Shown here: one piece after another, positions 5,475 through 58,849 of the stretch
Layout of the letters: each line of letters begins with the position of its first letter
Numbering within the stretch: position 1 is the first letter of the stretch
From: a bacterium
GTDB taxonomy: Bacteria > Oederibacteriota > CAKKQC01
Assembly: GCA_919901855.1 (NCBI GenBank)
Contig: CAKKQC010000006.1
Span: 155,896-219,895, forward strand
DNA: 64,000 bases
Direction: 5' to 3'
Notes under the pieces: generated by a model
Databases searched by the model: none
Seen by the model: only the letters and a program-made list of their open reading frames with translations
What the model was told of the DNA's origin: nothing
Made by a program: the position numbers and the translations under genes

Positions 5475-6445
5475 CCCCGGCGACCCGCGTCCTCGTCGTC
5501 ATGGGCGGCTGGTCCGCCGAGCGCGAGGTCTCGCTGGCTTCCGGCGCGGCGGTCGTCGAGTGCCTGACCCAGGCCGGGCACCCGGTCCTCGGGTTCGACC
5601 TCGCCCCGGGGGACTCGCACGGGGATGCCGTGCGCCGCCTGCTGGAGGCGGCCGTGACCTTCAAGCCGGACGCGGTCTACCTCGCCCTGCACGGACCGAT
5701 GGGCGAGGACGGGACGATGCAGGGACTGCTCGAGCTGGCCGGCCTCCCGTACAACGGCTCTCGCGTGGCCGCATCCGCGATCGGGATGGACAAGGTCCTC
5801 GCGAAGCAGGTGTTCGTTGCCAACAAGATCACGACGCCCCGGTACAACCTGGTGCCGCTGGGCTCCGCGGCGGCCCACGCGCCGCTGCCACTGCCCGTGG
5901 TCGTGAAGCCGAGGTCGCTCGGTTCCTCGATCGGGGTGTCGCTCGTCGAGAAATCCGAGGAGTTCGCCCCCGCCCTCGCGCTCGCGTTCGCCCAGGGTCA
6001 GGACGCCGTAGTCGAGCAGTACATCTCGGGGCGGGAGCTTCAGGCGTGCGTCGTGGACGGGGAGGCCCTGCCGCTCATCGAGGTGACGACGACGAACCGG
6101 TTCTACGACTACGAGGCGAAGTACACGGCGGGGAAGTCGGAACACAAGGTACCGGCACCGCTGCCGAAGAAGCAGTACGAGGCGGCCCAGCGCCTGGCGG
6201 TGTCCGCGTACCGCTCTCTGGGGTGCGAGGGCGCGGCCCGGGTGGAACTCATCGCGGAGGCCACGGGGACGCTCTACGTGATCGAGGTGAATACCCTGCC
6301 GGGCATGACGGTGACGAGCCTCCTGCCGGAGGCGGCGCGGGAGGCGGGCTGGAGCTTCCTGGATCTCATCCACCGGGAGCTGGCGGGGGCGATCCGGCGG
6401 CACGGCCGGGGCCCGGCGGCTCCGCAAGGGGGGGACAAGTCATGA
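5468..6445 (+). CDS. ddl: D-alanine--D-alanine ligase
   Basis: Ddl is an ATP-grasp enzyme making D-Ala-D-Ala for the stem-peptide terminus. The GTG at 5468, overlapping the murB stop, gives a 325-residue protein beginning just before the family motif GGWSAEREVSLASG. Further motifs are LHGPMGEDGTMQGLLE, PYNGSRVAASAIGMDK, VKPRSLGSSIGVS and the C-terminal VIEVNTLPGMT with the metal-binding residues. Length is normal. No upstream ATG preserves this reading frame without deep overlap into murB, so the GTG is preferred. It overlaps ftsQ by ATGA. Confidence 0.96.
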   Translation: MLTPATRVLVVMGGWSAEREVSLASGAAVVECLTQAGHPVLGFDLAPGDSHGDAVRRLLEAAVTFKPDAVYLALHGPMGEDGTMQGLLELAGLPYNGSRVAASAIGMDKVLAKQVFVANKITTPRYNLVPLGSAAAHAPLPLPVVVKPRSLGSSIGVSLVEKSEEFAPALALAFAQGQDAVVEQYISGRELQACVVDGEALPLIEVTTTNRFYDYEAKYTAGKSEHKVPAPLPKKQYEAAQRLAVSAYRSLGCEGAARVELIAEATGTLYVIEVNTLPGMTVTSLLPEAAREAGWSFLDLIHRELAGAIRRHGRGPAAPQGGDKS

Positions 6446-47560: not shown

Positions 47561-49045
47561 TCAGACGAGGGCGGCGGCCGGACGCGCCGCGGGGGCGGGG
47601 ACCGGCGTCGCGGCGGGCAGGGAAACGTGGAACTTGGTGCCCTCGCCCGGGAAGCTCTCGATCCAGATCCGCCCGTGGTGCAGTTCGACCAGCCGGCGGC
47701 TGATCGCGAGCCCGAGCCCCGTGCCCTCGCCGCTGACGGCGCCGACCTGCCCGAACTCCTCGAAGAGCTTGCCCTGGTCCTCGGGGGCGATGCCCGGTCC
47801 GGCGTCGGCCACCGTGATCCGGACCTCGCCCGGGAGGGCGGCGGCCGTGATCGAGACCCGCGACTCCGGCGGGGTGAACTTGATCGCGTTCGAGACCAGG
47901 TTCAGGACCACCTGCTTGATCCGTCCGAAGTCAGCGTGCATCTCGGCCGACAGGTCCCCGGAGGGCACCAGCATGACCTTGCGCTGGTCGGCCATCGGCC
48001 TGGCGACCGTCAGCGCTTCGGCGAGCACCGATGCCACGGAGATGTCCTCGAGCTTGAGCTCGATCGTCCCGGCCTCGATGCGGGCGAGATCCAGGAGGTC
48101 CGTGATCATGCCGCGCATGTGCTTGACCCCGCCCCGGATCTCGGCGACACTGCCCGCCTGCTCCGGGGTCATGGCGCCCTGGGCTCCGCTCGCGAGGATG
48201 TCCGCGAATCCCCCGATGCCGTTCAGCGGTGTTTTCAGCTCGTGCGAGACCCACCGCACGAGCCTGGACTTGCGCTGGTTCGCCTCCTCGATCTCGGCGA
48301 AGTGGAACCGGACGAACCTCCCGATTACGAGGAGCGAGATGGCGATGACGAGACCCATGGCGATCCCGGCCAGCAGGAGCACGATGTCCAGGCGGGTGAT
48401 GGCTTCCATCACCCGGGTGATCATGGCGGCTTTGGGGAGCTTCTCGGTCACGGCGGATTCGATATCCTGCGAGATCCAGTATACGGCGCCGAGCGTGAGC
48501 AGGATGAAGAGGCCGATGAACAGTCCCATGCGGCGGATCTTGATCATCAGGCGGGGCCGGCTTGATTCGGCGAGGGCGCCGCCGACCATGGCCCCGATCG
48601 CGGCCCGGTTGGCGGCCAGGGACTTGAGTTTCGCCAGCCGCCGTTTCCGGGCGGGGCTCAGCGCGAGCTGGGCGCGGCTCCGGACCCGCAGTTCCTCGCG
48701 GTCCAGGGGCTTGACTATGAAGTCATTGGCGCCGGTGGCCACCGCCTTGAGCCGGTCCTCGCGCGTATTGGTGGCGGTGATGACGATGATGGGGACGTCC
48801 GCGATCGCGGATATTCCGCGCAGGCGCTTGATGGTCTCGTAGCCGTCCATGTCGGGCATCCGGAGGTCGACGAAGATGAGGTCCGGCTCCTGCTGGGCCT
48901 TGGCCAGCGCCTCGGCGCCGCTCCCGGCCGCGTCCACGTCGTAACCTTCGGCGGTCAGGACCTCCCCGAGGAGATCCCGGAAGGTGTCGTCGTCGTCGAC
49001 GACGAGGGCGCGGGGGCGGCCGGCGGATGCCACTGTCACAAGCAT
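47561..49045 (-). CDS. Receiver-transmembrane-histidine kinase
   Basis: This 494-residue protein has an N-terminal receiver (VVDDDD, Asp in IFVDLRMPDMDG, Lys in FIVKPLD), then two membrane helices (about 172-193 and 222-245) with a short extracytoplasmic loop, then HisKA (VSHELKTPLNG) and HATPase (LNLVSNAIKFTP, VADAGPGIAP, GTGLGLAISRRL). A receiver placed before the membrane segment is unusual. The upstream region is shared divergently with the PAS kinase at 49174 and contains a GTAGGG palindrome. The start ATG at 49045 has no strong ribosome site. Confidence 0.92.
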   Translation of the reverse strand: MLVTVASAGRPRALVVDDDDTFRDLLGEVLTAEGYDVDAAGSGAEALAKAQQEPDLIFVDLRMPDMDGYETIKRLRGISAIADVPIIVITATNTREDRLKAVATGANDFIVKPLDREELRVRSRAQLALSPARKRRLAKLKSLAANRAAIGAMVGGALAESSRPRLMIKIRRMGLFIGLFILLTLGAVYWISQDIESAVTEKLPKAAMITRVMEAITRLDIVLLLAGIAMGLVIAISLLVIGRFVRFHFAEIEEANQRKSRLVRWVSHELKTPLNGIGGFADILASGAQGAMTPEQAGSVAEIRGGVKHMRGMITDLLDLARIEAGTIELKLEDISVASVLAEALTVARPMADQRKVMLVPSGDLSAEMHADFGRIKQVVLNLVSNAIKFTPPESRVSITAAALPGEVRITVADAGPGIAPEDQGKLFEEFGQVGAVSGEGTGLGLAISRRLVELHHGRIWIESFPGEGTKFHVSLPAATPVPAPAARPAAALV

Positions 49046-49092
49046 GACGGCAGCACCGGCGACCCGTATGCCGGGTATTCCCCACCTCCGGT

Positions 49093-49108
49093 GTAGGGTT
49101 TTCCCTAC
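49093..49108. promoter_or_regulatory. Palindrome GTAGGGTTTTCCCTAC, candidate NarL-type regulator site
   Basis: This 6-4-6 inverted repeat lies within a longer stem (49088-49113) in the divergent gap between two kinase genes. An almost identical copy (one mismatch in 16) lies at 51406-51421, before the chemosensory operon. The two copies bracket the kinase/NarL-type regulator pair, so autoregulation by that regulator is a reasonable inference. The position favours the ATG at 49174 over GTG 49117 as the kinase start. Confidence 0.65.
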
Positions 49109-49173
49109 GCCGGACCGTGCGCCGGCCGTCCGGCGGAATTGAGTCCCGGGGGCGGTTGCGCGAAAATGGCACG

Positions 49174-50655
49174 ATGGAGACAGGCGATCCGCCGGAGGTG
49201 CCGGCCGGCGAGGCGCGGGGCGGGCCGGCGGCCGCGCGGGCGGCGGAGGAGCGGTTCCGCACGCTGGTCGCGGCCCTTCCCGACGCGGTCGCGATAACCG
49301 ATCTCGAGGGCCGGGTCGAGTTCGCCTCCCCGCTGGCCATCCGTCTCCTCGGCCTGTCCGGGCCCGGGGAGGCGGTGGGGAGGAGTGCGCTCGAATTCAT
49401 CGCGCCCGAAGACCGCGCGCGGGCGCAGGATAATTTGCGCAAGACCGCGGCCGAAGGGCAGGTCCGGGAGGTCCAGTACAACTTCCTCAAGCGGAACGGC
49501 GCCATGTTCCCCGGGGAACTCAGCGCGGTCCTGGTGCGGGATGCCGGGGGCCAGCCGGCGTCGTTCATCGCGATCATTCGCGACATCACCGAACGCCTCG
49601 AGGCCGAGGACCGGCTCCGGCGGTTCGGAGCGCAACACGCGGGCATCCTGGAGGCCATACCCGTGGCCGTCGGCGTCAGCATCGAGGAAGGCCGCAACGT
49701 CTACACCAATCTGGCGATGCAGGGCATCTTCGGGTACACGGCCGCGGAGGCGCTGGCCGTGCCGATCGCGAGCCACTATGTAAATCCGGAGGACCGGATC
49801 CGTATGCTCGCGGACCTCGCCCGGGACGGCTCCATCCGCGACCGCGAGGTGGGGTTGCGGCATCGCGACGGCACCGCCCTCACGGCGCTGCTGAACGTGG
49901 ACATCGTGGAATGGAACGGCGCGCCGGCCCGGATGGCTTCGCTGCGCGACGTCACGGAGGCCAAACTCACGGAGGGGCGACTGCGCGAGCAGGCCGATCA
50001 GCTTCGCCTGCTCACGGATCGTCTCGCTGCGGTCGCGGAAGCGGAGCGCGCGGAGTTCGCGCGGATGCTGCACGACGCCATGGGCCAGAACCTGACGGGT
50101 TTGAGCTTCCAACTTCACGCGCTTCTGGGCGGTCCGCGGCCGGCGACCGACCCCGGGGTCCGGGAGCGCCTGCTGGAGTGCCTCTCGATGGTCAGCGACA
50201 TGGCGGATGCATCCCGGGAGTTGGGCGACAACCTGCGCCCTTCCGTGCTCGACGACTACGGGCTGGACGCGGCGGTTCGGGCCTGGGGGGACCGGTTCAC
50301 GGCCCGGACGGGGATCGCGCTCCGCCACCGCACCGCGGAGGTCTTCGGGCTCCGGCTGGCCCGCGAGGCCGAGATCGCGCTCTTCCGCATCGTGCAGGAG
50401 GCGCTGGCCAATGCGGCCCGGCACGCGAAGGCGACCGAGATCGTGGTCTCGATGGACGGAAGTCCGGAGGTGTTCCGGCTGGAGGTGGCGGACAACGGCG
50501 CCGGGTTCGACCTCGCGGCGCCGCAGGCCGAGGGCGGCCGGGGCGCGATGGGTATTCCCATCATGCAGAGGCGGGCCGAGTCCGTTCGCGGATCGTTCCG
50601 GATCGAATCCCGTCCGGGTCTCGGTACTTCCGTCATTGTGGAGGTGCCAAGGTGA
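49174..50655 (+). CDS. PAS-PAS sensor histidine kinase (HPK7/NarX-like)
   Basis: The 493-residue soluble protein has two PAS domains (about 25-135 and 145-270; ALPDAVAITDLEGRVEFASP and VGVSIEEGRNVYTN mark them), a dimerisation HisKA_3 domain with the His of MLHDAMGQNLTGL, and HATPase with EALANAARHAKAT, VADNGAGFD and a final GTSVIVEVPR. It is partnered with the NarL-type regulator that begins at its stop codon (GTGA). No membrane segment is present. An in-frame GTG at 49117 would add 19 residues but lies against the palindrome. Confidence 0.92.
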   Translation: METGDPPEVPAGEARGGPAAARAAEERFRTLVAALPDAVAITDLEGRVEFASPLAIRLLGLSGPGEAVGRSALEFIAPEDRARAQDNLRKTAAEGQVREVQYNFLKRNGAMFPGELSAVLVRDAGGQPASFIAIIRDITERLEAEDRLRRFGAQHAGILEAIPVAVGVSIEEGRNVYTNLAMQGIFGYTAAEALAVPIASHYVNPEDRIRMLADLARDGSIRDREVGLRHRDGTALTALLNVDIVEWNGAPARMASLRDVTEAKLTEGRLREQADQLRLLTDRLAAVAEAERAEFARMLHDAMGQNLTGLSFQLHALLGGPRPATDPGVRERLLECLSMVSDMADASRELGDNLRPSVLDDYGLDAAVRAWGDRFTARTGIALRHRTAEVFGLRLAREAEIALFRIVQEALANAARHAKATEIVVSMDGSPEVFRLEVADNGAGFDLAAPQAEGGRGAMGIPIMQRRAESVRGSFRIESRPGLGTSVIVEVPR

Positions 50656-51311
50656 TCACGGTCCTGATCGCGGACGACCACGCGATGGTCCGGGACGGCC
50701 TGCGGGCCGTGCTCGAGGCGAGCGGGGAGTTCAAGGTGGTCGGAAGCGTCGCGGACGGCCGGGAAGCCGCGGACGTGGCGCGGAGGACGTTCCCGGACGT
50801 GGCTGTCCTGGATGTAACGATGCCGGGGGTGGGTGGGCTCGAGGCGGCCCGGGAGATCCGGAAGGCGTGTCCGAAGTCGAAGGTTATCATGCTCTCCATG
50901 CACGCGGCGCTGGCATACGTCACCCAGGCCGTGCAGGCGGGAGCGAGCGGGTACGTGCTCAAGGAATCCGCGGGCGCCGAGCTGATCGAGGCCATTCGTG
51001 CCGCGATGCGGGGTGAGATGTTCTTCAGCCGCAAGATCGCCGAGGGGATGGCGGGCCGCCTCGCCGGCACCGGACATCCCACCGGTCTGGCCGCACTCGA
51101 CCGGCTCAGCGACCGGGAACGCGAGGTCCTGAAGCTCGTGGCCCAGGGGCATTCGAGCAAGGCGATCGGCCTCATGCTCAAGGTCTCCGCCAAGACCGTG
51201 GACTCCTACCGGGGCCGGGCGATGGTCAAGCTCGGCGTCGACAACCTGGCCGGGCTGATCAGGATCGCGGTCCAGTCCGGCCTGCTCCCGGTCGAACCCG
51301 AAGCGGAGTAA
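50652..51311 (+). CDS. NarL/FixJ-family response regulator
   Basis: The 219-residue protein has an N-terminal receiver (IADDHAMVRDGL, phospho-Asp in VAVLDVTMPGVGG, Lys in YVLKESAGAELIEAI) and a C-terminal LuxR-type helix-turn-helix (LSDREREVLKLVAQGHSSKAIGLMLKVSAKTVDSY). It overlaps the PAS kinase by GTGA and is its obvious cognate. Candidate DNA targets are the GTAGGG-N4-CCCTAC palindromes on both sides of the gene pair. A strong hairpin follows the stop. Confidence 0.95.
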   Translation: MITVLIADDHAMVRDGLRAVLEASGEFKVVGSVADGREAADVARRTFPDVAVLDVTMPGVGGLEAAREIRKACPKSKVIMLSMHAALAYVTQAVQAGASGYVLKESAGAELIEAIRAAMRGEMFFSRKIAEGMAGRLAGTGHPTGLAALDRLSDREREVLKLVAQGHSSKAIGLMLKVSAKTVDSYRGRAMVKLGVDNLAGLIRIAVQSGLLPVEPEAE

Positions 51312-51324
51312 GCCTCCCCCCTGT

Positions 51325-51355
51325 AGAGGCCATTGCCGAAGCGGCAACGGCCTCT
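51325..51355 (+). terminator. Strong hairpin after the NarL-type regulator
   Basis: AGAGGCC-A-TTGCCG and CGGCAA-C-GGCCTCT form a stem of 13 pairs with one A/C mismatch and an AAG loop, starting 13 bases after the stop codon. It lacks a downstream T-run, so termination may depend on other factors, but position and stability suit a terminator. Confidence 0.6.
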
Positions 51356-51376
51356 GCAAGCAGTGGATGGATATTC

Positions 51377-51405
51377 AAGCCTGCGGAGTTCCTCCGCAGT
51401 GGCTT
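51377..51405 (+). other. Second hairpin in the regulator-cheW gap
   Basis: CTGCGGAG-TTC-CTCCGCAG (51381-51399) is a perfect 8-bp stem, extended by AAGC/GCTT on the outside with a small bulge. It lies between the terminator-like hairpin and the palindrome at 51406. It could be a second terminator or an mRNA leader structure. Confidence 0.45.
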
Positions 51406-51421
51406 GTAGGGTTTCCCCTAC
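51406..51421. promoter_or_regulatory. Palindrome GTAGGGTTTCCCCTAC upstream of the chemosensory operon
   Basis: A second copy of the site at 49093-49108, with one mismatch, located about 120 bp before the cheW start. No clear -10/-35 pair is visible between them. It is a candidate operator through which the NarL-type regulator controls the chemosensory operon. Confidence 0.6.
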
Positions 51422-51540
51422 ACGCCAGCCCGTGATTTCCCGGCAGATCGGCCGGCGGGGTTGCGGCATGCTCATCAATGCGGAACGCACACCACACCAT
51501 GACATCAACGAGCACGAGGCGGGGAGAGGAAGCATGTAGC

Positions 51541-52005
51541 GTGCTGTTGCGGTTCGAGGTCGGGGAGACCAGGTTCGCCTTGCGGACCCCGCTCGTGCGG
51601 GAACTCGCCCGGGCCGTTCCGATAGTTCCCCTGCCCGCCGCGCCTCCGGTGATCGAGGGGGTCGTGAACCTCCGGGGGACGATCGTTCCCATTCTGGATC
51701 TGCGCGCCAGGTTCTCCCTGGGGGCCCGGCCGCTCGATCCCGGCGACCACCTGGTCTTTGCCGACGCGGGATCGCGCGTCGTCGGCTTCCGCGTGGACCG
51801 CGCGCTGGACATCGTGTCTGTCTCCGAAGACCGGGTGGAGGCCGCGCGCTCCGTCACGCCCGCCGCGGAGTATATCGAGGGATTCGCCAAACTCGACGAT
51901 GGGCTGGTCCTCATCCACGATCCCGCGTCCTTCCTCTCGCGCGCGGAATCCGCTAAGCTCGACGAGGCGCTCGGGGCCTCGGCCGCGCCGGGTGCGCCCC
52001 AATGA
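51541..52005 (+). CDS. cheW: CheW-like coupling protein (first copy)
   Basis: CheW couples chemoreceptors to CheA. The 154-residue product matches the CheW fold: LLRFEVGETRFALRTPLVREL, then VIEGVVNLRGTIVPILDLRARF and the second SH3-like half (VVGFRVDRALDIVSV, YIEGFAKLDDGLVLI). The GTG at 51541 is preferred because GAGAGGAAG lies eight bases upstream and the fold starts here. In-frame ATGs at 51499 and 51478 have no ribosome site. It opens the chemosensory operon and overlaps cheR (ATGA). Confidence 0.88.
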   Translation: MLLRFEVGETRFALRTPLVRELARAVPIVPLPAAPPVIEGVVNLRGTIVPILDLRARFSLGARPLDPGDHLVFADAGSRVVGFRVDRALDIVSVSEDRVEAARSVTPAAEYIEGFAKLDDGLVLIHDPASFLSRAESAKLDEALGASAAPGAPQ

Positions 52006-53387
52006 CCGCCCCCTCCTGCGTCGCCGGCGGCCACGGGGAAATCCTGGCGTTCCTCGCCGCGCGGGCCGGCCTCGTGTTTCCCCCGAGCCGGATCGAAGCG
52101 GTTCGCGACGGGATCGGGCGGGCGATGGCGCGGGCCGGCGCGGCCGACGGCCCGTCCTACCTCGGCGCTATCGAGTCCAGCCCCGCGGCCCTGGACGATC
52201 TCGTCTCCGAGCTCGTCGTCGGCGAGACGTACTTCTTCCGCGATCCCGGCCAGTTCGATTTCCTCCGCCAGGATGGAATCCCGGCCGTCCTGGCCCGGCG
52301 TCCCGCGGGCCACGCGCTCAGGATCTGGAGCGCGGGTTGCGCGACGGGGGAAGAGGCGTATTCCCTCGCGATCCTGGCCGACGAGATGGGGCTTTCGGGC
52401 CGGTCGAGCGTGGTGGGAACCGACCTGTGCCGGTCCGCCCTCGTGAAGGCCCGGCGGGCGGTTTACGGCGGCTGGTCGTTCCGGGGGACGGGCGAGCCGC
52501 TCCTGGCGCGGTTCGAGCCGGACGGCCCGCGGCGCCGGGTCGGCGCGGCGCTGCGGGAACGGGTGCGGTTCGAGTACCTGAACCTGGCGCTGGATTCGTA
52601 CCCGTCGTTCGCCGCCGGAATCTGGGGCATGGACGTGATCCTCTGCCGCAACGTCCTGATCTACTTCTCGCGCGAGGCGGTGGCGGCGACCGCCCGGCGG
52701 CTCCACGACACGCTCGGTGAGGACGGCTGGCTCCTGACCGGCCCGTCCGATCCGCCGCTCCAGGACCTGGCGCCCTTCGAGATCGTGATCACGCCGGGCG
52801 GCACGGCCTACCGGCGGGCGGCGAGGAGGACCGTCGTGGCCGGCTGGGAGGCCGTCGCCCCCGTCCTGGCGGAGTCCCTCACGGCGGAGATCCCCCAGGT
52901 TGCCTGCGAGCCGCGCGTCGCCCTTCCCGTCGAACCGGTGGGGGCGCCCGGCATCCCGCCCGCGCCAGCGGAGGAGCCGGACCCCGCCGCCCGTATTCGG
53001 GGGATTGCGAACTTGGCCGGTTTGCCGGCGGCGCTGCGCGAGGTCGAGGACGCGAGGCTGCGGAGCCCGCACTCCGTGGACCTCGCGTTCCTGCGGGCGG
53101 TGGTGCTCTCCGAGTTGGGGAGGCTCGACGATGCCGCCGCCGAGGCGCGGCACGCGCTCTACCTGGACCGGACGCTCGCGGCCGCGCACTTCCTGCAGGG
53201 GACGATCCTGCGGCGGCTCGGCGACCTCGGCGGGGCGGCCCGGGCGTTCCGGAACGCCCGCGATCTCGCCGCAGGCAGGCCGCCGGACGAGCCCGTGCCT
53301 CTCGGGGAAGGCGAGCGGGCCGGACGACTCGCCGAGGGCGCGGCGGTCCAGCTCGAGATGGTCGGGGCCGCCCGGAGGGTCGGATGA
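52002..53387 (+). CDS. cheR: CheR methyltransferase with C-terminal TPR domain
   Basis: CheR methylates receptor Glu residues using S-adenosylmethionine. The 461-residue protein has the N-terminal helical domain, [11 protein letters not shown], the SAM motif [17 protein letters not shown], and [13 protein letters not shown]. After about residue 275 comes a Pro-rich linker, then two to three TPRs (about 320-440: [41 protein letters not shown]). CheR-TPR fusions occur in pilus-linked and alternative chemosensory systems. ATGA overlaps both neighbours. Confidence 0.94.
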
Positions 53388-53908
53388 GCTCTCCCGATTC
53401 CGCGCGGACGAGGGAAATCATGGAGGAGCGCGCCCGGCGGCTCGCCCGGCCGGCGGCGGAAGTCCGGGGATCCGGCGACACGCTCGAGATCGTCGTCTTC
53501 GGGCTCGCGAGCGAGCGGTACGCGGTGGAGAACCGGTACGTCCGCGAGGTGGTCCGGCTGGCGGACCTCGCGCCGGTGCCCGGGGCTCCCGAGTTCATGG
53601 CGGGAGTCACCAACCTGCGGGGCGAGATCCTGGCCGTCGTGGACCTGCGCCGGTTCTTCGGGGTTCCCGCGCGCGGCATCACGGACACGTCGCGCGTGGT
53701 CGTGCTGGGGGCCGACGAGGCCGAGTTCGGCGTCCTCGCCGACGCGGTCGGCGAGGTCGTCTCCGTGCGGCCGGAGGAGATCCTGGACCCGCTGGCGCCC
53801 GCCGGGGGGGTGGGCGGCGAGTACCTCCGGGGGGTCACGAAGGACGGACTAATCGTCCTGGACGGCGCGGCACTGCTCGCGAGTCCGCGGCTGGTCGTCG
53901 AACAATGA
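53384..53908 (+). CDS. cheW: CheW-like coupling protein (second copy)
   Basis: The 174-residue protein has about 35 extra N-terminal residues, then the CheW fold: [46 protein letters not shown], and the second half with [13 protein letters not shown] and [15 protein letters not shown]. Together with the first cheW it gives two different couplers for one receptor and one CheA. ATGA overlap with cheR. An ATG overlapping its stop (53905) could extend the receptor gene. Confidence 0.93.
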
Positions 53909-53949: not shown

Positions 53950-55590
53950 ATGGCAATGGAGATTCCGTGGTCGAGGACGATCAAGGCGAAGCTCGGAGGC
54001 ATCGTGGCCGTTCTCGGGCTGCTGGCTGCAGGGCTGGTCGGGGGCAACCTCCTGATCCTGTCCACGATCCGGGGCGACGCGGCCGCCATCGACCTGGCGG
54101 GGATGGGCCGGATGCGCGCCTTCCAGATGCTCTACCTGGTACATCGGCTGGTGCAGGAAGGACCGCGGAACCGGGCCGATCTCTTGCCCGAGCTCCGGGA
54201 TGCCATGGAGCGCACCGGAAGCCGATTCCCCGAGCTCCGTAACGGCGACGCCGCAAACGGAATCCCCGCCACCCGCGACGCCGGGCTGCTCGCGCAAATC
54301 ACCGAACGCGAAGGCCTGTGGCGGGACGAGATCAAGCCGGCCATCGATTCGATCCTCGCCGCACGCTCCCGGCAGGATGCCGAGTCGAAACTGGGATCGC
54401 TCGAGACCTCGCTCCGCAAATACCTGAAGGACGTCAATGACTTCACGCTCGCCTACCAGCGAGTGACCGAGGAGAAGGTGAGGTTGTTCGAGCGTCTCCA
54501 GGTGGCCTTCCTGGCCATCGCGCTCCTCATCATCGCGGGAGTCTGGTTGGTGGCGCGCGGGATCGCCGGGCGCGCCCGCGAGCTCGCGTCGACCGCCGAG
54601 CGCATCGCTGGCGGCGAACTGTCCCTGGCCGCCCCGGCATCGGGGTCCGACGAGCTCGCGGCGCTGGGCGAGGCGTTCAACGCGATGACCGCGAACCTAC
54701 GGCGGATCATCGAGACCGAGAAGGAGGCCCGGGCCGGGCTCGAGAAGCTCCTGGCCGCGATCCGGGAGACCGCGAGTAGCGTCTCCTCCGCGACCGCCGA
54801 GATCCTGGCGGGGACGACCCAGCAGGCGTCCGGCGCGCAGGAGCAGTCGGCGGCGGTGGCCGAGACGGTTACCACGGTCAACGAGGTGCTCCAGACCTCG
54901 GACCAGGCCGCCCAGCGGGCAAAGGCGGTGCTGGATTCGTCCCAGCGCGCGGCCGAGATCGGCAAGGCCGGGCGGAAGGCCGTCGACGACACGGTCGTGG
55001 TCATGGGGACGGTCAAGGAACAGGCGGAGACGATCGCCGAGAGCATCCTCGCGCTGGCCGAGCAGGCGCAGGCGATCGGCGAGATCATCGCGAGCGTCAA
55101 CGACATCGCGGAGCAGACGAATCTGCTCGCGCTCAACGCCGCGATCGAGGCCTCCCGGGCTGGAGAGCAGGGCAAAGGGTTCGCGGTCGTCGCGGCCGAG
55201 ATCAAGGCCCTGGCCGACCAGTCGAAGAAGGCGACCGGGCAGGTGCGCCAGATCCTGGGCGAGATCCAGAAGGCTACGAACAGCTCGGTCATGGTGACGG
55301 AGGAGGGCAGCAAGAGCGTGAACGCGGCGATCAAGGTCGTGAACCAGGCCGGGGAGACGATCCGGACGCTCGCGGACACGATCGCGGAAGCCTCGCAGGC
55401 AGCGGGCCAGATCGCGGCCTCGGCGGGACAGCAGGCCAACGGGATGACCCAGATCCATCAGGCGATGAAGAACATCGAGGTCACGACCAGCCAGAGCCTG
55501 GCGAGCGTCCGGCAGGCGGAGAAGGCGGCGCAGGACCTCAACGCGATGGCGGGGAAGCTGAAGACGCTCGTGGCCGCGTACGGGGGCTGA
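53950..55590 (+). CDS. Methyl-accepting chemotaxis protein with PilJ-type sensor
   Basis: The 546-residue receptor has a first membrane helix (about 16-37) followed at once by a PilJ/NarX-type sensor motif, [20 protein letters not shown]. The periplasmic helical domain runs to about 175, the second helix spans about 181-200, then HAMP and a long signalling coiled coil with the conserved hairpin tip [20 protein letters not shown]...GKGFAVVA (about residues 375-415). The ATG at 53950 has GGGAGGAAG upstream; ATG 53905 overlaps cheW. PilJ-type sensors are typical of type IV pilus chemosensory systems. Confidence 0.93.
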
Positions 55591-55596
55591 GCCCGG

Positions 55597-57810
55597 GTGG
55601 ACCGGGACGCGCTCGCCCGCAGGCTCATGGCGACCTTCCTGGCCGAGATGGAGGAGCACGTCCGCACGCTCAACGCCGGGCTCGTCGCGCTGGAGAAGGG
55701 AGGGGACCCCGCGCGGCGGCCGGAGCTCGTCGCGGAGCTCTTCCGCGCCGCCCATAGTCTCAAGGGGGCTTCGCGGTCGGTGGGCGCGGCCCGGATCGAG
55801 ACGGCCTGTCACCGGATGGAGGGGATTTTCGCGAGTGTCCGCGACGGGTCGCTGGCGCTCGGACCGGAGCAGTTCGGCGTGCTCTTCGCGGCCGTCGACG
55901 GGGTGGAGGAGGCGGGGGCGAGGCTCCGCGACGGCCGGGAGCCCGCGGGGCCGGCCGGAGTGCCGGCGCCGCCGGTCCTCCCCGGCGCTCGGGCGCCCGA
56001 ACCGGCCGCCGTCGTCGCCAGCGCCGCGGCCGTTCCCGGCCGCGCGGTGCGCATTCCGGCCGCCCGGCTGGACCGGCTGCTGGACCTCAACGGCGAGCTC
56101 CAGGTCGCCCGGCGGCGGGGCGAATCCCGGGCGGCGGCGCTCGCGGCACTGCGGGAGTCCGTCGGGCGCTGGCGCGGGGAGTGGCGCGGCGCGAACCGGG
56201 ATGTCCGAAAGGTGGTCGGCGGCGCGGACCGGGGCGGGCCGGGATTCGGCAGCGGCCACGGCGGCGAGGCGGCCCCGCTGCCGCGCCGGGCGGTCAGGGT
56301 GCTGGAGGGGACCGCCGAGCGGCTCGACCGGCTGGAGGACGACCTCGAGAGCCTGGCGGTCGGCCTCGCCGGCGACCGCCGGGCCGTCGACCAGGCCGCC
56401 ATCCCCCTGTCCGACGAGGTGCGGCGGGCGCGGATGCTCCCGTTCGCCGAGGTCTGCGAGGGACTCGACCGGGTCGTTCGCGACCTGGCCGCGGCTTCGG
56501 GGAAGATCGTGGACCTCGTGGTCGAGGGAGGAGCCGCCGAGCTGGACCGCGAGGTGCTCGACCGGCTCAAGGACCCCCTCGTTCACCTGGTTCGGAACGC
56601 CGTCGGTCACGGGATCGAGCCGCCGGAAGTCCGCCGGGCGGCCGGCAAGCCCGAGCTCGGCCGGGTCACGGTGGCCGCCGCGGTGACGGGCTCTGACGTC
56701 GTGATCGCGGTCCGGGACGACGGTCGGGGGCTGGACGGGGACGCCATCGGGCGCGAGGCGCGCAGGCGCGGACTGCCGCCGCCCGAGGGGCCGCACGACC
56801 TCGTGCGGCTCGCGTTCCAGCCCGGGTTTTCGACGGCCACCGCCGTCACCGAGGTGTCGGGCCGCGGCGTCGGGCTCGACGTGGTGAAGTCGCGGGTGGA
56901 GGCGCTCCACGGCGCCGTCGAGTGTACGACCTTCCCTGGCCGCGGGACCGCGTTTTCCCTGCGCGCGCCCGTCACGCTGGCCGCGATCCGGGCCCTGCTG
57001 GTTTCCTCCGGGGGCGGGGTATTCGCCGTGCCGAACTCGGGCGTGCGCCGGCTCCTCCGCGCCGGGCCGGGGGATCTCGGCTCCGTCGGGGGACGGGACG
57101 TCGTATTCCTCGCCGACGGGCCGGTGCCCGTGGTCCCGCTCGCGGCGGTCCTCGGGCTTCCGGCGCGCGACCCCGCGAGGCCGGGCGGCAGGCTTCCGGT
57201 TGCCGTCCTCGCGTCCGGCGAGGAGCGGATGGCGTTCGCGGTCGAGGAGTTCGTCGCGGAGGCCGAGGTCGTCGTCAAGGGCCTCGGCCGGAGGCTGAAA
57301 CGGGTGCGGGGCATGGCCGGCGCCACCGTGCTGCCGGACGGCCGGGTGGCCATGATCCTGAGCGTCGGCGAGCTGTTGCGCGCGGCGGCCGCGGCCGCGC
57401 CCGCCGCGTCGCTCGCCTCCGCGCCGCGCGAAACAGCGGCTCCGGCGCGCAAGCGCCTGCTTGTCGTGGACGACTCCATCACCACCCGGACGCTCGTGCG
57501 AAGCATCCTGGACGCGGCGGGGTACGAGGTGACGGCGGCTGCGGACGGAGCCGAGGCCTGGATGGTGCTCCAGGAAGCGGGCTCCGACCTCGTGGTCGCG
57601 GACGTCGAGATGCCCAGGCTTGACGGCGTCGCCCTCACGCAGGCCATCCGCGCCTCGAAGCGGTTCCGCGACCTGCCCGTGGTCCTGGTGACGGCGATGG
57701 AGAGCGAGGCCGACCGCTCCCGCGGGCTCGAAGCGGGCGCCGACGCCTACCTGCTCAAGAGCGCGTTCGACCAGGCGCGCCTGCTCGAGACGATCGGGCA
57801 GTTGCTGTGA
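55597..57810 (+). CDS. cheA: CheA histidine kinase with C-terminal receiver
   Basis: The 737-residue hybrid CheA has an HPt domain with H53 in RAAHSLKGASR, a Pro/Ala linker, a P3 dimerisation region, and a HATPase with HLVRNAVGHGIE, VRDDGRGLDGD and SGRGVGLDVVKSRVEALHG. A CheW-like P5 domain (about 440-590) and a receiver (VVDDSITTRTLVRSIL, phospho-Asp in VVADVEMPRLDG, to the end) complete it. There is only one HPt. The fused receiver may replace CheY, which is absent from the operon. GTG start six bases after the receptor gene. Confidence 0.94.
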   Translation: MDRDALARRLMATFLAEMEEHVRTLNAGLVALEKGGDPARRPELVAELFRAAHSLKGASRSVGAARIETACHRMEGIFASVRDGSLALGPEQFGVLFAAVDGVEEAGARLRDGREPAGPAGVPAPPVLPGARAPEPAAVVASAAAVPGRAVRIPAARLDRLLDLNGELQVARRRGESRAAALAALRESVGRWRGEWRGANRDVRKVVGGADRGGPGFGSGHGGEAAPLPRRAVRVLEGTAERLDRLEDDLESLAVGLAGDRRAVDQAAIPLSDEVRRARMLPFAEVCEGLDRVVRDLAAASGKIVDLVVEGGAAELDREVLDRLKDPLVHLVRNAVGHGIEPPEVRRAAGKPELGRVTVAAAVTGSDVVIAVRDDGRGLDGDAIGREARRRGLPPPEGPHDLVRLAFQPGFSTATAVTEVSGRGVGLDVVKSRVEALHGAVECTTFPGRGTAFSLRAPVTLAAIRALLVSSGGGVFAVPNSGVRRLLRAGPGDLGSVGGRDVVFLADGPVPVVPLAAVLGLPARDPARPGGRLPVAVLASGEERMAFAVEEFVAEAEVVVKGLGRRLKRVRGMAGATVLPDGRVAMILSVGELLRAAAAAAPAASLASAPRETAAPARKRLLVVDDSITTRTLVRSILDAAGYEVTAAADGAEAWMVLQEAGSDLVVADVEMPRLDGVALTQAIRASKRFRDLPVVLVTAMESEADRSRGLEAGADAYLLKSAFDQARLLETIGQLL

Positions 57811-57820
57811 GGCGCCGGGC

Positions 57821-58849
57821 GTGATCCGCGTCGTCGTCGCCGAAGACTCCGCCACGATGCGGGAACTGCTCGTGGCGGTGCTGAAGGCCGATCCGGAAAT
57901 CGTCGTCGCCGGGGAAGCGAAGAACGGGCTGGAGGCGGTGGAGATGGCCAACCGGATCCGTCCCCACGTGATCGTCATGGACGTCCGGATGCCGGTCATG
58001 GACGGGCTCGAGGCCACGAAGCGGATCATGGTAGAGGTCCCGACCCCGATCGTGATCGTGTCGGGCAGCTTCGACGTGCGCGAGATCGAAGTCTCCATGC
58101 ACGCGCTCCGGGTGGGTGCGCTCACGGTGCTGCCGAAGCCCCCGGGTCCGGAGTCCCCGGCATTCGGGGAGGCCGCCCGGCGGTTCGTCTCGACCGTGAA
58201 GGCGATGTCGCAGGTCAAGGTCGTCCGGCGGTGGCCCGACCGGGCCGTGGCGGCTCCGGCGTTGCGCGTTCCGGATAGCGGCGGGCAGGCCCGGGTCGTC
58301 GCGATCGCCGCCTCCACTGGAGGGCCGGCGGCCCTGCACCGGGTGTTGTCGGGACTCCCCGGCGGGCTGGCCGTTCCCGTGCTCGTGGTCCAGCACATGG
58401 CGCCGGGCTTCGTGGGGGGGTTCGCCGGGTGGCTGAACTCGGTTTCGCCGCTCCGGGTGAAGGTCGCGGAGGATGGGGACCCGCTCGCCCCCGGCGCCGT
58501 GTACCTGGCCCCCGACGGGTGCCACCTCGGCGTGGCGGGCCGGGGGGCGGTCAGGCTTTCGTGCGACGCGCCGATCGACGGGTTCCGGCCTTCGGGGACG
58601 CACCTGTTCGAGTCGGTCGCGGCGGGCTTCGGACCCGCGGTCCTCGCCGTGATCCTGACGGGGATGGGCGAGGACGGCGTGGCGGGCCTCCACGCGGTGC
58701 GCGCCGCGGGAGGACTGGTCCTCGCGCAGGACGAGGCGACCTCGGTCGTGTTCGGGATGCCGGGGCGGGCGGTGGCGGAAGGACTCGCGGACGTCGTCCT
58801 GCCGGTGGATTCCCTGGCGGCCCGGATCGCCGAGGAGGTGCGCGGATGA
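57821..58849 (+). CDS. cheB: CheB protein-glutamate methylesterase
   Basis: CheB removes methyl groups from receptors, with activity set by phosphorylation. The 342-residue protein has a receiver with D54 in IVMDVRMPVMDG and a methylesterase domain with Ser165 in ASTGGPAAL, His192 in VVQHMAPGF and the Asp in ILTGMGEDGVAG. All catalytic residues are present. It starts with GTG at 57821, ten bases after cheA, and overlaps the hybrid kinase by ATGA. Confidence 0.96.
   Translation: MIRVVVAEDSATMRELLVAVLKADPEIVVAGEAKNGLEAVEMANRIRPHVIVMDVRMPVMDGLEATKRIMVEVPTPIVIVSGSFDVREIEVSMHALRVGALTVLPKPPGPESPAFGEAARRFVSTVKAMSQVKVVRRWPDRAVAAPALRVPDSGGQARVVAIAASTGGPAALHRVLSGLPGGLAVPVLVVQHMAPGFVGGFAGWLNSVSPLRVKVAEDGDPLAPGAVYLAPDGCHLGVAGRGAVRLSCDAPIDGFRPSGTHLFESVAAGFGPAVLAVILTGMGEDGVAGLHAVRAAGGLVLAQDEATSVVFGMPGRAVAEGLADVVLPVDSLAARIAEEVRG

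Follow-up and report, generated by a model that had tools for sequence, protein, structure and literature searches.

Twin palindromes flanking a sensor kinase–NarL-type regulator gene pair are probable operators of the regulator

Gene organization and position of the palindromes

The analyzed window is a 64-kb stretch of DNA corresponding to contig C6:155896-219895 of the assembly. Two short palindromes in this window bracket the genes of a soluble sensor kinase and a NarL-type response regulator, with a divergent kinase gene on one side and a chemosensory (che) operon on the other. The features of the locus, in window coordinates, are the following.

47561..49045, minus strand: divergent REC-TM-HisKA-HATPase kinase (ORF and domains); predicted target of site 1
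49092..49109, unstranded: site 1, operator-like palindrome TGTAGGGTTTTCCCTACG in the divergent intergenic region; exact match, ranked second in the 64 kb by the relatives' motif
49174..50655, plus strand: soluble PAS-PAS-HisKA_3-HATPase kinase, partner of the regulator (ORF and domains); overlaps the regulator start
50652..51311, plus strand: NarL-type response regulator (REC and GerE; Pfam Response_reg, GerE) with recognition helix KTVDSYRGR; predicted to bind sites 1 and 2
51318..51409, plus strand: REP-like dispersed repeat (hairpin, core AAGCAGTGGATGGATATTCA, terminal TGGCTTGTA), from genome matches and comparison of copies
51405..51422, unstranded: site 2, perfect 7-4-7 palindrome TGTAGGGTTTCCCCTACA in the gap between regulator and che operon; exact match, ranked first in the 64 kb by the relatives' motif
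51541..52005, plus strand: CheW, first chemosensory gene (ORF and domains); predicted target of site 2
52002..53387, plus strand: CheR with TPR (domains)
53384..53908, plus strand: second CheW (domains)
53950..55590, plus strand: methyl-accepting chemotaxis protein (MCP) with PilJ-type sensor, HAMP and signalling domain (domains)
55597..57810, plus strand: CheA with C-terminal REC (domains)
57821..58849, plus strand: CheB (domains)

As the original prediction had stated, GTAGGGTTTTCCCTAC at 49093-49108 and GTAGGGTTTCCCCTAC at 51406-51421 occur on the plus strand and differ at a single position, base 10 of the 16. Pfam domains and ORFs also confirmed the claimed surroundings, with site 1 between the REC-TM kinase and the PAS kinase and site 2 upstream of the che operon. 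The PAS kinase ORF opens at 49117, the ATG at 49174 being the likelier start, and the CheW ORF opens at 51478 while its likely start, GTG 51541, is preceded by the Shine-Dalgarno-like sequence GGAGAGGAAG. With the starts at 49174 and 51541 both sites are non-coding and lie at distances usual for regulator sites. The center of site 1 is 55 bp from the ATG of the REC kinase and 74 bp from that of the PAS kinase, and site 2 begins 95 bp past the regulator stop codon with its center 128 bp ahead of the CheW GTG. A sigma-70-like promoter was not recognized near either site in scans that are weak at 70% GC. Downstream of CheB there are REC-containing sensor kinases. The MCP (53950-55590) places a PilJ/NarX-like sensor domain inside a Wsp-like operon.

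The RNA of the region comprising site 2 and the adjoining repeat forms strong hairpins (z = -6.3). A hairpin-capable sequence 95 bp past a stop codon could mark where the kinase-regulator transcript is terminated or ends, but we consider this reading of site 2 hardly credible. A U-tract is absent and the terminator scan gave no call near site 1 or site 2. A terminator would be senseless at site 1, where the same sequence separates two divergent starts, and a stronger hairpin closer to the stop codon (51322-51357) could itself terminate transcription. Furthermore, the versions found beside relatives of the regulator (e.g. TGTCATAGTTTCCCTACA) retain the TGT/ACA ends while the inner pairing is gone.

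Copy number in the genome and phylum

Within the 64 kb the loose forms GTAG-N8-CTAC and GTA-N10-TAC were found at sites 1 and 2 only. When up to two mismatches to the 16-mer were allowed, the window contained 2 matches against a mean of 1.56 in shuffled sequences, which is no excess, and the signal therefore sits in the exact matches. The original prediction had named many scattered copies as evidence that would speak against it. The genome of 4.68 Mb in 91 contigs holds just three exact copies of GTAGGG-N4-CCCTAC, two of them being sites 1 and 2, and none of a reversed control pattern, so this objection fails. From simple base composition, ca. 0.5 copies of the 16-mer and ca. 0.01 of the 18-mer with TG/CA ends would be expected by chance in the genome. 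Other 16-mers of the genome with one mismatch scored at most ca. 11 bits on the motif derived from relatives (see below), as compared to 15-17 bits for sites 1 and 2.

Contig C90 (L003 / L146), which is 3.7 kb long and has 57% GC versus 70% in the window, holds the third exact palindrome, TGTAGGGGATTCCCTACA, 170 bp ahead of an ORF that encodes an Endonuclease_NS domain. Contamination or a mobile element could explain this contig, and its membership in the organism is uncertain. A second Endonuclease_NS-type gene adjoins the one next to this palindrome.

Among 45 genomes of the phylum, two carry the exact palindrome, and the copy in the other genome is a fully self-complementary run, GTAGGGGGCCCCCTAC. 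A full-length homologue of the regulator was likewise found in two of the 45; the second genome with a homologue is not the second genome with the exact palindrome. The rarity of both regulator and site in the phylum suggests that they were acquired by transfer.

A dispersed repeat touches site 2

The repeat to the left of site 2 ends in TGGCTTGTAG and thereby extends into the first bases of the palindrome. A genome search with the repeat gave 26 further matches to parts of it, including tandem copies on the small contigs C71 and C64. The copies in L144, L145, L147, L148 and the window share a variable hairpin of the form AGAGGCC...GGCCTCT or AGGGCC...GGCCCTT. Some copies have GTAG or CTAG at each end, which may reflect a target duplication.

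The contact with a REP-like element of many copies, together with the strong RNA folding of the region, could mean that the palindromes are themselves a dispersed repeat family, or fortuitous hairpins, to which no regulator binds. We consider this very unlikely. Matches to the repeat stop before position 51382 genome-wide, and past the terminus the sequence differs in each of the other copies read. Since the rest of the palindrome occurs in none of these, it is not part of the repeat. Site 1 has no adjoining repeat, exact palindromes number only three in the genome, and the site recurs in other phyla at loci that were matched through the regulator and not through the repeat. Insertion of the repeat beside or into an operator may have shaped the locus.

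The regulator and the motif beside its relatives

Both domains of the regulator scored above cut-off (Response_reg, 5e-28; GerE, 1e-16), as did HisKA_3 in the partner kinase (9e-9), whose gene overlaps that of the regulator. In the 4.68-Mb genome the regulator is the sole protein detected with a GerE/LuxR-type helix-turn-helix, and the remaining receiver-domain matches are not full-length to it.

To the regulator we compared 80 loci of its relatives from other phyla (33-47% identical), which were retrieved by protein and not by site. The exact 16-mer had no match beside these relatives, and a pattern appeared only with a relaxed 18-mer, a near match being defined as TGTAGGG-N4-CCCTACA with at most 3 of the 14 positions mismatched. 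Seven of the 80 loci had a near match within 120 bp past the regulator stop codon, whereas the frequency in the remainder of these loci predicts 0.23. Closely related Burkholderiaceae account for four of the seven, which leaves about four independent lineages. None of 104 permuted palindromes equaled this result. Inspection of the downstream regions gave a common form, TGT[CA]...TTTCC[CT][TG]ACA, in Chloroflexota, Thermodesulfobacteriota, Myxococcota and Pseudomonadota. In the relatives' whole genomes the pattern with the right spacing had 11 matches, some within coding sequence, versus 3 in controls, and with a spacing one base longer the matches were near the control level.

A motif was then derived de novo under a palindrome constraint from the 160 bp downstream of relatives with a Tyr-containing recognition helix (15 of 18), leaving the window out. 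The choice of Tyr-helix loci and of the constraint was made after the sites were known, but the window sequence itself was unused. The motif obtained was TGTCAGG-N4-CCTGACA with A/G alternatives at positions 4 and 5, i.e. TGT[CA][AG]GG-N4-CC[CT][TG]ACA. Scanned over the 64-kb window it placed site 2 first (17.0 bits) and site 1 second (14.8 bits), and the third hit had 12.1 bits. Of the 18 regulators with the helix [KR][TS][VI]xxY[RK], 9 had a site of more than 14 bits no farther than 150 bp away, versus 0 of the 62 others (p = 2e-7, an optimistic value because the loci are related). These counts use all 18 Tyr-helix regulators. A blind version that used the window's own unrefined motif gave 6 of 18 versus 1 of 62 (p = 4e-4).

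In a tree of the regulators the window protein fell into a group of 11 members (support 99/96) that spans Chloroflexota, Thermodesulfobacteriota, Myxococcota and Pseudomonadota, and 8 of the 11, including the window, carry the site. For L017, L020 and L014 of the same clade no site was seen. Two Desulfuromonadales loci with a His-Arg helix (L023, L028) have AGTAGGGTTT(G/C)(T/C)CCCACC and AATAGGGA-type repeats just downstream of the regulator, perhaps a sister specificity.

These data also bear on the identity of the binding protein. The palindromes could be operators of another factor, such as a different response regulator or a Crp/Fnr-type protein, since the genome survey of candidate binders covered the GerE family. 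We regard this as unlikely. The motif in relatives tracks the regulator's own recognition helix and its position beside the regulator gene, and regulator and sites are both largely absent from the phylum.

The same arrangement in other genomes

The bracketing seen in the window recurs in L013 from a Desulfobulbaceae genome, where the order is divergent REC gene, site, kinase-regulator pair, site, and ammonium transporter-hemerythrin gene. Its two sites (2216-2233 and 5771-5788) are in inverted orientation to each other and agree at 17 of 18 positions, and the likeness runs ca. 20 bases beyond them. In L065 a site lies 105 bp ahead of the kinase. The downstream site in Caballeronia precedes a Crp/Fnr-type gene. 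In Burkholderia/Caballeronia loci (L043, L054, L058, L087) the site is near Crp/Fnr-type and universal stress genes, and a second AAATCCCTAC half-site follows ca. 20 bp on. This resembles the low-oxygen-activated and the FixLJ-FixK contexts. The genes downstream vary among the relatives and none of those examined has a che operon in this position, so the che operon is named as a target from the position of site 2 only.

Proposed regulation and its implications

The palindromes are very probably operators of the NarL-type regulator encoded between them, through which it would govern its own expression along with that of the divergent kinase and the che operon. This was the central claim of the original prediction, and it is supported at the level of sequence by the single GerE protein of the genome, the motif beside homologues, the co-variation with the recognition helix and the bracketed arrangement in Desulfobulbaceae. 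In the proposed mechanism, the PAS-PAS-HisKA_3 kinase would sense a signal, upon which the regulator becomes phosphorylated. The phosphorylated regulator would then dimerize and bind the 18-bp TGTAGGG-N4-CCCTACA with one GerE domain per half-site. From site 1 the regulator would control the operon that it shares with the kinase (autoregulation) as well as the divergent REC-TM-kinase gene, and from site 2 the CheW-CheR-CheW-MCP-CheA-CheB operon. Binding of the regulator to the sites, its dependence on phosphorylation and an activating effect are predictions made from the DNA and protein sequences.

Under such control, transcription of a Wsp-like operon would be tied to a soluble PAS kinase system, which would set the timing of array building. 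It also yields a specific prediction, namely a recognition sequence for a NarL-type clade in several phyla and the Tyr-Arg/Lys helix that accompanies it. More tentatively, with the odds in our view somewhat against it, this may be a mobile clade that brings its own operator, TGT[CA][AG]GG-N4-CC[CT][TG]ACA, just past the regulator gene and so captures the next operon. If this is true, the chemosensory operon would be what was captured here, and elsewhere it would be cytochrome genes, an ammonium transporter-hemerythrin gene or a Crp/Fnr gene. The pattern in which the operator comes right after its regulator gene while the genes next in line vary suggests how such modules rewire after transfer.

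Comparison with known systems

A literature search, with subscription papers mostly outside its range, gave no match to the palindrome motif, and a prior description is possible. Among curated NCBIfam models, those of the rhizobial MctR/MctS system scored best, with 181.2 bits for the regulator and 136 bits for the kinase, but the cut-offs of 300 and 700 are far above these values and the transporter gene mctP is not next door. The passages of PMC9100948 consulted describe no binding site for MctR.

The second-best model for the regulator was UvrY/SirA/GacA, with 163.7 bits against a cut-off of 280. GacA-type boxes are 18-bp palindromes of the form TGT...ACA. The cognate kinase GacS/BarA is an unorthodox HisKA hybrid, unlike the kinase type of the window.

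FixJ of the FixLJ-fixK system of Rhizobiales and Caulobacterales is likewise a NarL-type regulator. Its target promoters contain an imperfect 18-bp palindrome, and the sequences GTAGTTTCCC and TAAGTAATTTCCCTTA given in PMC4999443 have a TTTCCCT core that is common to site 1 in the same register. Within its 18-bp imperfect palindrome site 1 has TTTTCCCTAC, and site 2 has TTTCCCCTAC with one more C. L011 and Caballeronia have repeated half-sites that are reminiscent of the two binding regions at fixK. However, the outer arms are TAAG in FixJ-type sites versus TGTAGGG here, and the window regulator reached 91.4 bits on the NCBIfam FixJ model, for which the cut-off is 255. Its partner kinase is of the HisKA_3 type, and by eye a haem ligand was not seen in the PAS domains. 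The neighbor of the regulator is a che operon and not the Crp/Fnr-type gene fixK, whereas the Caballeronia relatives do have a Crp/Fnr gene after the site. An assignment of the regulator as FixJ, GacA/UvrY or MctR was rejected because all curated model scores were well under the cut-offs.

The predicted target of site 2, with CheW, CheR-TPR, CheW, MCP, CheA-REC and CheB together, resembles Wsp-like (alternative cellular function) operons, but it is followed by REC-domain sensor kinases instead of a diguanylate cyclase and its MCP has a PilJ-type sensor. Judged by its sequence features, the locus would follow an autoregulated operator logic of the FixJ/GacA type, operated by a regulator group that is unnamed in the model libraries used.
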